The position numbers and the translations under genes are program-made. The notes beneath the pieces were generated by a model. That model saw only the letters and a list, made by a program, of their open reading frames with translations, did not search any database and was not told the DNA's origin. A stretch of DNA of 45,864 nucleotides from an uncultured Acidobacteriaceae bacterium (GTDB lineage: Bacteria > Acidobacteriota > Terriglobia > Terriglobales > Acidobacteriaceae): assembly GCA_903828675.1 (NCBI GenBank), contig CAIKND010000049.1, forward strand, positions 1-45,864, given 5' to 3'. The stretch's first letter is position 1. Every line of letters starts with the position of its first letter. Of this stretch, positions 6,653 through 13,551 are shown one piece after another.

Positions 6653-6662
<10 letters not shown>
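6631..6662. terminator. Hairpin at the end of carB
   Basis: A strong stem (TGGAGCCTG at 6631-6639 and CAGGCTCCA at 6654-6662, with an inner CCCG/CGGG stem) covers the carB stop codon. It lies between two convergent genes, so it could terminate both transcripts. The following T-run is weak in both directions (CGTTTC on the minus strand), so its efficiency is uncertain. Confidence 0.5.
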
Positions 6663-9949
<3,287 letters not shown>

Positions 9950-9952
9950 GGT

Positions 9953-10687
9953 CTAGTTAGAAACTCCTGTGATTGCCATGGCTCGCGCTTTGAGCGAGGT
10001 TAGAAGGCTTTCAAAACCTAATTCAGCCGATGGCTCGCGATAACTGCCATCCTTGGCAGAGGCTTGACTGGAAAGTAGTAGGGCTGCGCTGTCATACAGC
10101 CGTTCTCTTACCAGCTTTGTCATTAGAATCTCGTACCGCTTGGCATAGGACGTATCTCGAAACTCAGGAAATACGGGGAAATGAGGTTCTCTTACTCCAA
10201 CAGGGCTCAGTGATCGCGCAATCTCCTCCAGAAGCATTACATAGCCGAGCCATGGACGCTGTGAAAGGGAAAAAGCACCTTCACGATATGCCGTCCAGAT
10301 ATCCGTTGCACTTCCCAACGACTCCTCAGTTCTGTTATTGAAGTTATTGTCGAATGAACCAACTTGCGACTTAAATTCCATTGCTGCGATCAACTGGCCT
10401 TTTACGACCACTAGCAAGTCCCATTTCTTTTCAGCCCGAAACCAACCTGGAAGCTCGACCGCATGATTACAGAAGATAGTGGCCTGATCAATTCCACAAT
10501 CTACTAGGAAATCCCGGACCAACTCAACAAATCCGTCGAGTTGCTTGCCGCCCGTAACGGCGGTGCGGTTCCCGGCGTCGCGCGAACCGGACTTGGTGCC
10601 TTGGCGGCTGGCTTGATTCCCTCGTGTACCCCAGAAATGCTTGACAGCGGCACGGAGACGTTTCTCCCAAACAGGAGTCAAGCTCAT
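9953..10687 (-). CDS. PaeR7I/XhoI-family type II restriction endonuclease
   Basis: This 244-residue protein matches the PaeR7I family, whose characterised members cut CTCGAG. Visible signatures are WGTRGNQASRQGTKSGSRDAGNR, given here as two landmarks (WGTRGNQ and SGSRDAGNR), then LPGWFRAEKKWDLLVV and AAMEFKSQVG, the Asp and Glu-x-Lys of a PD-(D/E)xK nuclease core (about residues 88-110). NNFNNRTEESLGSATD, WTAYREGAF and PWLGYVMLLEE follow. The length agrees with the family. Its start overlaps the methyltransferase stop (ATGA at 10684-10687), and it ends 3 nt before carB. At least three CTCGAG sites occur in this window (8691, 17044, 29090), so the host must be protected if the enzyme is active with that specificity. 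The specificity is inferred from the family. Confidence 0.88.
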   Translation of the reverse strand: MSLTPVWEKRLRAAVKHFWGTRGNQASRQGTKSGSRDAGNRTAVTGGKQLDGFVELVRDFLVDCGIDQATIFCNHAVELPGWFRAEKKWDLLVVVKGQLIAAMEFKSQVGSFDNNFNNRTEESLGSATDIWTAYREGAFSLSQRPWLGYVMLLEEIARSLSPVGVREPHFPVFPEFRDTSYAKRYEILMTKLVRERLYDSAALLLSSQASAKDGSYREPSAELGFESLLTSLKARAMAITGVSN

Positions 10688-11703
10688 GGTTCCTCCACTT
10701 GCGTTACCGTCGGCCGCCAGAAGAGCCCGCCCGTCTCCCGGTAGAAGCGAGACACGGACATTTGGTGATATTTGTCGCTGATCTCATAGCCAATGCTGTG
10801 TCGTCCGGTTCGGGCGGCGGCAATCGCATTGGTTCCTGATCCAGAAAAAGGATCGACTACCACGTCGCCAGCGAAGCTGAACATTCGAATCAACCGCTCG
10901 GCCAATTCGACCGGATAGGGCGCTGGGTGGTTTTTTGTTGAAGCACCCGTTAGCCCAGTCCAAATTTGCTGAAACCAGCTTTGGTAGTTTTCAGCACTGA
11001 TGACGGAGAGCAGACGCATGGCGGTGGTGGGCTTGCGGTAGCCTCCCGGCTTGCGGAACATCAAAATGAACTCGACATCGTTCTTGATGACTGAATTCGG
11101 CTCATACGGCTTGCCAAGGAATCCACCGCCGCCCGAGACCTCATAAACGGCATTTGCGATCTTGTGCCAAATAATAGGCGCCAGATTGTCGTACCCAATT
11201 TTGCGGCAAAGCTCCTGAATGGAGGCATGGAGAGGCACAACTGTGTGACGCCCATCGTTCTGCCGCCTCGACAGGCAGACATCACCAACGACACAGATTA
11301 GCCTCCCACCAGGAACAAGCAAGTCATAGCAGCGCCGCCACACTTTGCCCAATTCCGCTAGGAACTCATCGTACTCAATTACATGGCCTAGCTGCCCGCT
11401 GGCATCGTCATATTTCTTCAGGGTCCAATAGGGGGGAGAAGTCAGAATCAGATGTGCGCTCTCCGGGGCAAGCGAACGCATCTCTCGAGCGTCACCGTGG
11501 ACAAGATAGTGGCTGGACGGGATTTGAAGCAGTGACTGCTCTAGCAATGTCATTGCTGCGGAATCGCGTGCCAATCGGGGAATTTCGGTCTGTTCAAGCG
11601 GCACATCAATAAGCGGCCTCGGCAGAAAGGAAAGAAGATCCAACTCCGGGATAATGATCCCTCCCGGCTCTGGCTCCTCCCTTCTGGCTGCGAGTCCGCT
11701 CAT
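10684..11703 (-). CDS. Site-specific DNA methyltransferase (beta-class, TSPPY type) of the restriction-modification pair
   Basis: This 339-residue amino-methyltransferase transfers a methyl group from S-adenosylmethionine to a base in DNA. The catalytic motif TSPPYW (about residue 92) comes before the SAM-binding motif [13 protein letters not shown] (near 290). This order places it in the beta class, which includes N4-cytosine and N6-adenine enzymes. HGDAREM and [15 protein letters not shown] are further landmarks. I prefer ATG 11703 (MSGLAARR) because it overlaps the carA stop as ATGA, which argues for coupled translation; an ATG at 11712 is also in frame. It presumably protects the site cut by the nuclease encoded directly downstream. 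The methylated base cannot be told from sequence alone. Confidence 0.9.
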
Positions 11704-12851
11704 GATTTCCACTCCTCCATCATCGTACGGAAGTCGCGGAACAGATAGTGCGAGTCGTGTGGGCCGGGAGCGGCTTCGGGGTGGTACTGGACGCTGAACA
11801 GCGGCAGTGTTTTGTGGCGCAGGCCTTCCAGAGTCTGATCGTTAAGGTCAACGTGGGTCAGTTCGACTTCGTTGGCGTTGATCGAGTCGGGATCGACGGC
11901 GAAGTTGTGGTTGTGGGCCGTGATCTCGATCTTGCCGGTGGCGTTGTTGCGGACCGGGTGATTGCCGCCGTGATGCCCGAATTTGAGCTTGTAGGTGCGG
12001 CCGCCCAAGGCTAGCCCGGTTAGCTGGTGGCCAAGGCAGATGCCGAAGACCGGCACGCGGCCCAGGAACTTGCGGATGGCGCGGACTGCATAATCGACCG
12101 GCTCGGGGTCGCCGGGGCCGTTCGACAGAAAGATGCCATCGGGCTTGAGGGCGAGCACGTCTTCGGCGGTGGTCTCAGCCGGGACAACCGTTACGCGGCA
12201 GCCTTCGCGTGTGAGCATTCTAAGGATGTTGTGCTTGATGCCGAAGTCGTACGCAACCACATGCAGCAAGCTACGGGACGCTTCTTCGGTCTTCATAAAC
12301 CCTTCAGCCAGCAAGGGATCCGCGGATTGGTTGCGGCTGTCTGAGGCATCGAACTGGTAGACGGATTTGGTGGAAACGACGCGCGCCAGGTCGGTTCCGT
12401 CCATCTTGCGGATGCTTCTGGCCCTCTGAACGAGAGACTCAGCATCGACGGTTTTCGTCGAAATTACGCCGCGCATCACCCCATAGGTACGCAGGTGGCG
12501 AACCAGGGCGCGGGTGTCGATCTCGGCCAGAACTGGTACCGCATAGCGCTCCATGTACTCGTCGGTGACCTGTTCGGAGCGCCAGTTGGAGCTGATGGGC
12601 GAGAATTCGCGGACGATCAGGCCCTCGATATAGGGCTTGGCCGACTCGTTGTCTGCCCGGTTGGTGCCGTAGTTGCCGATTTGAGGATTGGTAAGAACTA
12701 CGATTTGACCGGCATAGGAAGGATCGGTGGCGATTTCCTGGTAGCCGGTAAGGGAAGTATTAAAAACGACCTCGCCCTGGCATTCGCCGGGGTACCCATA
12801 GCCGTGGCCACGGAAGATGCGCCCGTCTTCGAGCGCTAAGATTGCCTGCAT
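11700..12851 (-). CDS. carA: Carbamoyl-phosphate synthase small (glutaminase) subunit
   Basis: At 383 residues this is the normal CarA length. It hydrolyses glutamine and channels ammonia to CarB. The N-terminal CarA-specific domain shows [15 protein letters not shown] and NYG. The C-terminal class I glutamine amidotransferase domain has Cys272 in FGICLGHQ and His357/Glu359 in QYHPEA, forming the triad. A TATAAAAT-like -10 element on the minus strand (12870-12877) sits about 20 nt before the start. It may be the car promoter, although no good -35 is evident. In most bacteria carB follows carA closely. Here two restriction-modification genes of about 1.75 kb lie between them, beginning with a 4-nt overlap on the carA stop. 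Confidence 0.96.
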
Positions 12852-12936
12852 CGCCTCTCCGAGGAGTGGATTTTATAGATTCTAACAGGACCAGCGGAGA
12901 ATGTCCCGGTAATGCTGAGGACGGTCTTTGGCAAGC

Positions 12937-13551
12937 CTATCGCACCACCCCGGCATCCTTGGCAGGCCAGTAGACGAAAACGGCTTTTCCATAGACCAGG
13001 GAGCGCTCGACAGGGCCAAATTCGCGGCTGTCTGAGGAGATGGAGCGGTGATCGCCCATCATGAAAAAGCTGCCCTGAGGAACGACGATCTCCTCGTAGG
13101 AGCGGCTGTCGCGGTACTCGTCTGGGACATAGTTTTCAAGCAGACGCCTGCCGTTGAGCCAGACCGTGCCATGGTCGATATGCAGACGATCGCCTGGCAG
13201 GGCGATAACGCGCTTGATGTAGCTCTTTTCCGGATCGCGGGGGTAGTGAAAGACGACTACATCGCCGCGCTCGATTGCCGAGAGGTGATAGACGAATTTG
13301 TTGATGAAGAGGCGGTCGCTGTCTTCCAGACGCGGCAACATGCTCGTTCCCTCCACGCGCACAGGCTGATAGAGGAAGGTAATAATCAAAACCGACGCAG
13401 CCGCGGAGATGGCCAGGTCGCGCAACCAGAGCGCAATCCCCCCGGCGTTAAGGGTCTGAGGAGGTGCAGGATCAGGAGTCGGCGGAGTGAGGCCGGTCTC
13501 GAGGTCGGTGCCGGAATCGACATCTTGCGTGTGCAGGGGAACCGTTGACAT
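12937..13551 (-). CDS. lepB: Signal peptidase I
   Basis: This 204-residue membrane protease removes signal peptides from exported proteins. A proline-rich cytoplasmic N-terminus precedes one membrane segment (about residues 40-62). The S26 motifs follow: Ser70 in VEGTSMLP (nucleophile) and Lys113 in YIKRVIALPGD (general base). GDHR and SSDSREFGPV lie in the C-terminal part. A GGAG site lies directly before the ATG. It follows the glycine-zipper gene by about 12 nt and precedes carA by 85 nt on the same strand, so it may share the upstream transcript. Confidence 0.95.
   Translation of the reverse strand: MSTVPLHTQDVDSGTDLETGLTPPTPDPAPPQTLNAGGIALWLRDLAISAAASVLIITFLYQPVRVEGTSMLPRLEDSDRLFINKFVYHLSAIERGDVVVFHYPRDPEKSYIKRVIALPGDRLHIDHGTVWLNGRRLLENYVPDEYRDSRSYEEIVVPQGSFFMMGDHRSISSDSREFGPVERSLVYGKAVFVYWPAKDAGVVR

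Follow-up and report, generated by a model that had tools for sequence, protein, structure and literature searches.

An XhoI-type restriction-modification pair between carA and carB of Acidobacteriaceae: probable long-term resident of a variable operon slot

Analysis of a 45,864-nt stretch of DNA from an uncultured Acidobacteriaceae bacterium (GCA_903828675.1, contig CAIKND010000049.1; hereafter the window) and of corresponding loci in related genomes points to an old, operon-resident restriction system housed in a family-wide cargo slot between carA and carB, a reading to which we assign a probability of about 0.7. Its basis is the gene order, the kept overlaps, the grouping of the enzymes on a tree, purifying selection, the variability of the slot, copies of the slot boundaries, and, in one sister pair, near-native flanks. 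The pair is likely made from the host biosynthesis message and is likely one of several exchangeable passengers.

Gene layout and enzyme identity

The four genes lie on the minus strand in the order carA, methyltransferase, nuclease, carB, joined by two 4-nt ATGA overlaps and one 3-nt gap:

12879..12907, minus strand: likely carA promoter with extended -10 TGTTAGAAT, ending 27 nt 5′ of the carA ATG (predicted)
11700..12851, minus strand: carA, upstream flank of the slot (PF00988/PF00117)
11724-11700, minus strand: carA tail, the last 25 nt, including GGAGGAG and terminating in ATGA
11700..11703, minus strand: ATGA overlap of methyltransferase start and carA stop (sequence)
10684..11703, minus strand: DNA methyltransferase, 339 aa (PF01555, TSPPYW; predicted N4-cytosine type)
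10684..10687, minus strand: ATGA overlap of nuclease start and methyltransferase stop (sequence)
9953..10687, minus strand: XhoI/PaeR7I-family restriction endonuclease, 244 aa (PF04555)
9950..9952, minus strand: 3-nt spacer (ACC) from the nuclease stop TAG to the carB ATG at 9949
6653..9949, minus strand: carB, downstream flank of the slot (PF02786/PF25596)

These coordinates confirm the order, overlaps and gap given in a preliminary description of this DNA, and the same order recurs in 19 genomes. A possible alternative methyltransferase start, a GTG at 11712, lies inside carA. From the overlaps we infer that the pair is translationally coupled with carA and carB.

The nuclease matches PF04555 (XhoI) over positions 3-190 of 191 (E 3e-77, 259 bits against a curated cut-off of 25), with one PF04555 match in the window's own genome, and has no PDB relative by sequence at E up to 1. 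The methyltransferase is a beta-class enzyme matching PF01555 (N6_N4_Mtase, E 2.3e-38), and its nearest PDB match is 2zie, a putative Thermus enzyme (E 4e-105); PADLOC labels the two proteins REase_II and MTase_II. Read from the sequence, the nuclease contains WD...EFK, which we take to be PD-(D/E)XK-type catalytic residues, and the methyltransferase contains TSPPYW, presumably indicating N4-cytosine methylation. The pattern E/D/Q-F-K-S/A-Q is present in 35 of 41 nuclease relatives, and EFKSQ in all 20 rows located between carA and carB, one record of which appears twice (G435 is the named record of L122). Among 80 named nuclease loci, this methyltransferase lies directly upstream in 38 and downstream in others, while some have no match. 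The pair is predicted to be a type II restriction-modification system, of a kind in which the nuclease stands beside its cognate methyltransferase in many lineages.

The ratio of observed to expected CTCGAG sites is 0.40 (G000), 0.35 (G103), 0.73 (G023), and 0.62 (G094) in genomes with the pair, and 0.87 (G060) and 0.65 (G002) in genomes without it; the window holds 8 sites where 16.4 are expected. We rejected this avoidance as proof of specificity because G002, which lacks the pair, also stands at 0.65, with CTCGAG fourth lowest of 54.

Conservation of the arrangement across the family

A search of 398 genomes of the family, most of the genomes compared being draft metagenome bins, recovered the methyltransferase at E 1e-100 or better in 35. 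Of 21 newly fetched family loci, 13 lie between carA and carB and 8 elsewhere, several of them on short contig ends; five matches came without a fetched locus, and in two of the genomes concerned (G170 and G139) the carA-carB slot holds something else. Together with six loci of the window's genus, the order carA, methyltransferase, nuclease, carB was found in 19 genomes from 9 genera; since these were assembled separately, we rejected an assembly artefact as the main reading. A 4-nt overlap joins the methyltransferase start to the carA stop in 18 of the 19 (7 ATGA, 11 GTGA), a constancy that led us to discard chance overlap, and the gap from nuclease to carB is at most 9 nt in 17, the exceptions being G435 (210 nt) and G454 (26 nt). 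A small third ORF at L122:1886-2114 lies between the nuclease and carB and runs into the first carB codons. In G103, 608 nt separate the pair from carA, with a hairpin and a secreted-protein gene in between; the overlap with carA is therefore not obligatory.

Identity among the car-located systems falls to 61% for the methyltransferase and 60.5% for the nuclease, indicating that the layout has outlasted much change. On the methyltransferase tree (10 of 37 forks weak and left open), 3 changes between car and other locations suffice for 41 rows, against a minimum of 8 and a mean of 13.6 in 100 shuffles. Methyltransferase and carB distances are correlated (rho 0.74, matched in 0 of 2000 permutations; 20 rows, one record twice). 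Values of dN/dS between 0.02 and 0.06 in the four pairs, out of six, with unsaturated dS (8 of 12 comparisons) show that the compared pairs are under purifying selection.

Copies found elsewhere in the window's genus (G025, G029, G087, G089, and G015) fall in another methyltransferase clade. Those of G083 and G018, sited outside carAB, belong to the car clade, as former or displaced members of it. In G083 (L119:4970-6729), the car-type pair lies 140 nt behind a PEP-carboxykinase-like gene and begins GTGGAAAGC-ATG, resembling a carA tail; in G018 (L121:4982-6723), the copy follows a galE-like gene and has a TAG within the nuclease, the methyltransferase being open.

At least 35 of 159 genomes from other families of the class have carA next to carB (single-row alignment), so something entered between them, as the preliminary description had proposed. 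A recent, one-off insertion, as its reading would imply, is not supported, as the car-located lineage spans 9 genera and groups on the methyltransferase tree. In other genera of the family, the gap measures 67-3074 nt and contains coupled ORFs, transposases, and GIY-YIG genes (20 intervals, 18 of them chosen for length). One of these genera has a 3-kb slot (L270, G281) with two large membrane-protein ORFs, the second starting MPRRNDI like carB; we did not count it as a carB-head relic, the DNA match being non-significant (p 0.07).

Contents of the slot within the genus

Searches of 80 genomes of the window's genus returned a carA match in 69, a carB start in 62, and the methyltransferase in 16. 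Presence of the same two genes in all relatives, which the preliminary description had named as evidence against its insertion, is not what we found, as 64 of the 80 have no methyltransferase match. Sixty-three genomes entered the pairing of carA with carB, excluding carA fragments that end before the 3′ end (e.g., G066, G003, G098, G085, G014, and G093); in nine, the contig with carA lacked a usable carB, and the 54 with both genes on one contig supplied the intervals analyzed.

These intervals span 88-2468 nt, and carA ends in ATGA in all 54. Passenger genes occupy 39, and 15 are passenger-free (14 at 168 nt or less, one at 313 nt). The XhoI-type pair is present in six (G000, G010, G023, G073, G094, and G103). 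By names that rest on a scan of part of the passengers, carboxypeptidase-regulatory-like secreted proteins occur in 16 of the 54 intervals, another secreted family in 7, GIY-YIG proteins in 7, REP-associated transposases (NCBIfam REP_Tyr_transpos) in 15, and a gamma-class methyltransferase with a partner of no named family in one (G064); several intervals contain two or more kinds. The G064 locus (L115:37-2516) thus has a different, restriction-modification-like pair, encoding, beside this methyltransferase, a 296-aa protein with 804 homologues, many in Acidobacteriota; its carA match stops at residue 289, and this carA may be frame-shifted or misassembled. The GIY-YIG-like passengers of L103, L104, L105, and L107 are possible further defense genes, with weak PADLOC PDC-S14 hits in L103 (E 0.0034) and L107 (E 0.00012).

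Of the 54 intervals (L063-L116), 32 have a hairpin of the form GCGGGGC-loop-GCTCCGC followed by T, which in 30 cases stands 29-46 nt past the carA stop. Folding energies of three examples lie between -17.5 and -20 kcal/mol (z -3.8 to -4.2), and the element resembles an intrinsic terminator placed between carA and carB. The strict pattern is found a single time in each of the G060, G002, and G103 genomes, where carA ends, and has no match in those of G000, G035, and G022, the latter two having carA-end variants that it misses; with at most one occurrence per genome in these six, we rejected a genome-wide repeat. The hairpin is missing from five of the six intervals with the XhoI-type pair, and G103 retains it in front. 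In some genomes, the hairpin is itself coding, read in frame at the beginning of a secreted-protein gene (RGFWLRCFL).

Turnover, boundary copies, and breakpoints

On the carA tree (23 of 54 forks weak and left open), the pair requires 5 changes for 6 rows, where 50 shuffles average 4.86, and the 16 slot states distinguished take 31 changes across 51 rows, where 50 shuffles reach a minimum of 30; on the rpoB tree (16 of 30 forks open), the 5 pair-bearing rows need 4 changes (33 rows). The scatter of the pair on the carA tree equals that of shuffled labels, and the pair occupies 6 of 54 intervals, which argues against the earlier idea that residence in carAB is a way to fix a selfish cassette.

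The histories of the genes also disagree in places. G023 combines a nuclease resembling that of G094 (82%) with a methyltransferase resembling that of G000 (87%), and G094 has the most divergent methyltransferase (0.24-0.26), yet its carB distances are 0.05-0.08 (within the genus). The unrelated methyltransferase of G064 has nearly the same first codons as the partner of the XhoI-type nuclease.

Scanning 74 intervals for copies of the slot boundaries, with 200 simulated sequences for each, uncovered copies of the carB head at passenger joints in G029 (5 of 33 mismatches), G095 (8 of 33), and G139 (2 of 33), and of the carA tail in G089 (0 of 25) and G262 (6 of 25). A candidate carA-tail relic before the G103 methyltransferase was rejected as not significant (8 of 25 mismatches, p 0.05), weaker head-like hits in G008, G025, and G015 (11-13 of 33) were left uncounted, and head matches in G028, G099, G016, G020, and G011 are true carB starts rather than duplicates. 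The copies suggest that cassettes have been stacked at some joints.

One sister pair differs in slot contents: G010 carries the XhoI-type pair and G004 a secreted protein, and the two share 89-97% identity in carA and 90-94% in carB. On the right flank, the first 62 nt of carB are identical; on the left, differences are confined to the final 4 nt ahead of the stop and the stretch from nt 22 onward. An imported tract was not seen in 300-nt bins of the flanks of this pair.

Taken together, turnover, the sister pair, the mixed pair of G023, the first codons of the G064 methyltransferase, and boundary copies speak for a history of cassette exchange and stacking. The slot would act as a swap site, at which cassettes carrying different genes displace one another or pile up, the breakpoints lying at the carA tail and the carB head or no more than ~20 nt from them.

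Promoter and translation signals

A TGNTANAAT element found 27 nt 5′ of the carA start in 47 of 57 genus genomes is the likely carA promoter; as its -10 ends 27 nt before the carA ATG, little room is left for a leader attenuator. Scanning 9500-13200 for sigma-70-type promoters gave two hits against 1.3 expected: one is the carA promoter, and the other falls within carA. No element comparable to TGNTANAAT is present in the pair or toward the 3′ end of carA. With nothing beyond chance there, the preliminary description is supported in placing the pair in a housekeeping operon with no evident promoter of its own. Rfam searches of the slot in 5 loci, taken to E up to 1, matched neither a riboswitch nor any other known RNA.

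One glutamate codon within the GGAGGAG of the carA tail is GAG in every row, compared with an average of 0.79 across 15 conserved glutamate columns, and codons 2, 4, and 6 of carB are CCA, AGA, and GAC in all 48 genus heads compared. The GAG codon and the invariant carB codons may reflect translation signals, recombination ends, or both.

Based on these features, we propose that RNA polymerase would start at the conserved promoter 5′ of carA and produce one message. GGAGGAG in the last carA codons would load ribosomes that, after the carA stop, reinitiate first on the methyltransferase and next on the nuclease before arriving at the carB start 0-9 nt further on. By this order of restarts along the message, the nuclease would always be made behind its methyltransferase.

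Discussion

Our preferred reading of an old resident in an exchangeable slot leaves expression, coupling, restriction activity, and the route of exchange to be deduced from the gene arrangement, and several other histories have to be weighed against it. A mobile pair could have jumped into carAB recently and been held there since its loss breaks carB or triggers post-segregational killing. Such an event would fit the adjacency of carA and carB in other families, the scattered presence in the genus, and the mobility for which restriction systems are known (movement of PaeR7I was seen in laboratory E. coli; PMC3031569). It is nonetheless unlikely, because the car-located lineage extends over 9 genera with conserved overlaps, the tree speaks against a recent origin, and the pair is often absent or replaced and so not locked in. 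We consider it very improbable that the pair was simply inherited vertically from the family ancestor, with many losses and no cassette exchange: the correlation of methyltransferase with carB distances across genera (rho 0.74) and the few changes of location on the methyltransferase tree are as expected, but the divergent methyltransferase of G094, the mixed pair of G023, and the shared first codons of the unrelated G064 enzyme are not.

Exchange itself could proceed by more than one route. Homologous recombination over long carA and carB tracts after DNA uptake, as in a classical minimal mobile element, would give the tail and head no special role; the definition fits, with conserved genes flanking different cassettes (PMC3082526), but G010 and G004 show no imported tract and place the breakpoints within ~20 nt of the slot, other pairs being too distant to resolve, and the copies of tail and head found at joints suggest very short homologies. 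This route is possible, though we lean away from it. Equally tentative is our own suggestion of an integrase-less cassette slot set in a core biosynthesis operon, with two docking ends, the carA tail (GGAGGAG as ribosome-binding sequence, and ATGA) and the carB head (ATGCCACGCAGAAATGA), in which landing genes would at once be transcribed and translated by coupling, passengers would stack and leave boundary copies, and one restriction-modification lineage would have become permanent across the family. That REP-associated tyrosine transposases drive insertion into the slot, the restriction pair having come in their wake, seems very unlikely: such genes are present in 15 of 54 genus intervals and 5 of 20 intervals from other genera, but in none of the six genus intervals with the restriction pair.

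If the preferred reading of an old resident in an exchangeable slot is true, an essential biosynthesis operon serves over long evolutionary times as a landing slot for promoter-free passengers, and a restriction system, usually thought to need timing controls of its own, lives by reinitiation behind a housekeeping gene. The locus offers a testable system for how defense genes enter, come to be expressed, and give way to others without recombinases, and successive events can be read from the joints that have boundary copies.

Comparison with known systems

In Neisseria gonorrhoeae, carA and carB were reportedly found in 1995 to be separated by a variable stretch, said to consist of repeats and not of coupled genes. 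Our literature search, with subscription papers mostly outside its reach, found no description of a restriction-modification pair between carA and carB of Acidobacteriota. The closest parallels are the minimal mobile elements of Neisseria, where pheS and pheT flank different whole-gene cassettes, including type II restriction-modification systems (PMC3082526). The carAB slot likewise consists of conserved genes flanking different whole-gene cassettes (54 intervals, 39 filled). Compared with pheS/pheT, the start of the first passenger here overlaps the stop of the gene before it, stacked cassettes are marked by boundary copies, and the variation is seen between species.

In Helicobacter and Campylobacter, restriction-modification genes occur in his and glutamate operons (PabI homologues and a GANTC system), and an R gene has been replaced under a kept M gene, with competition for the operon niche (PMC10273834). 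The acidobacterial case resembles these in having restriction genes inside an amino-acid operon and a contested niche; relative to the systems described there, it differs in its enzymes and lineage, its spread over 9 genera in which the 4-nt overlap is conserved, and a slot that takes non-defense genes too. As in the XhoI/PaeR7I systems (CTCGAG), the nuclease belongs to PF04555 and has the same catalytic residues, whereas its partner is a beta-class enzyme with TSPPY and of predicted N4-cytosine type, unlike the PaeR7I methyltransferase, which makes 6-methyladenine (PMC3031569).
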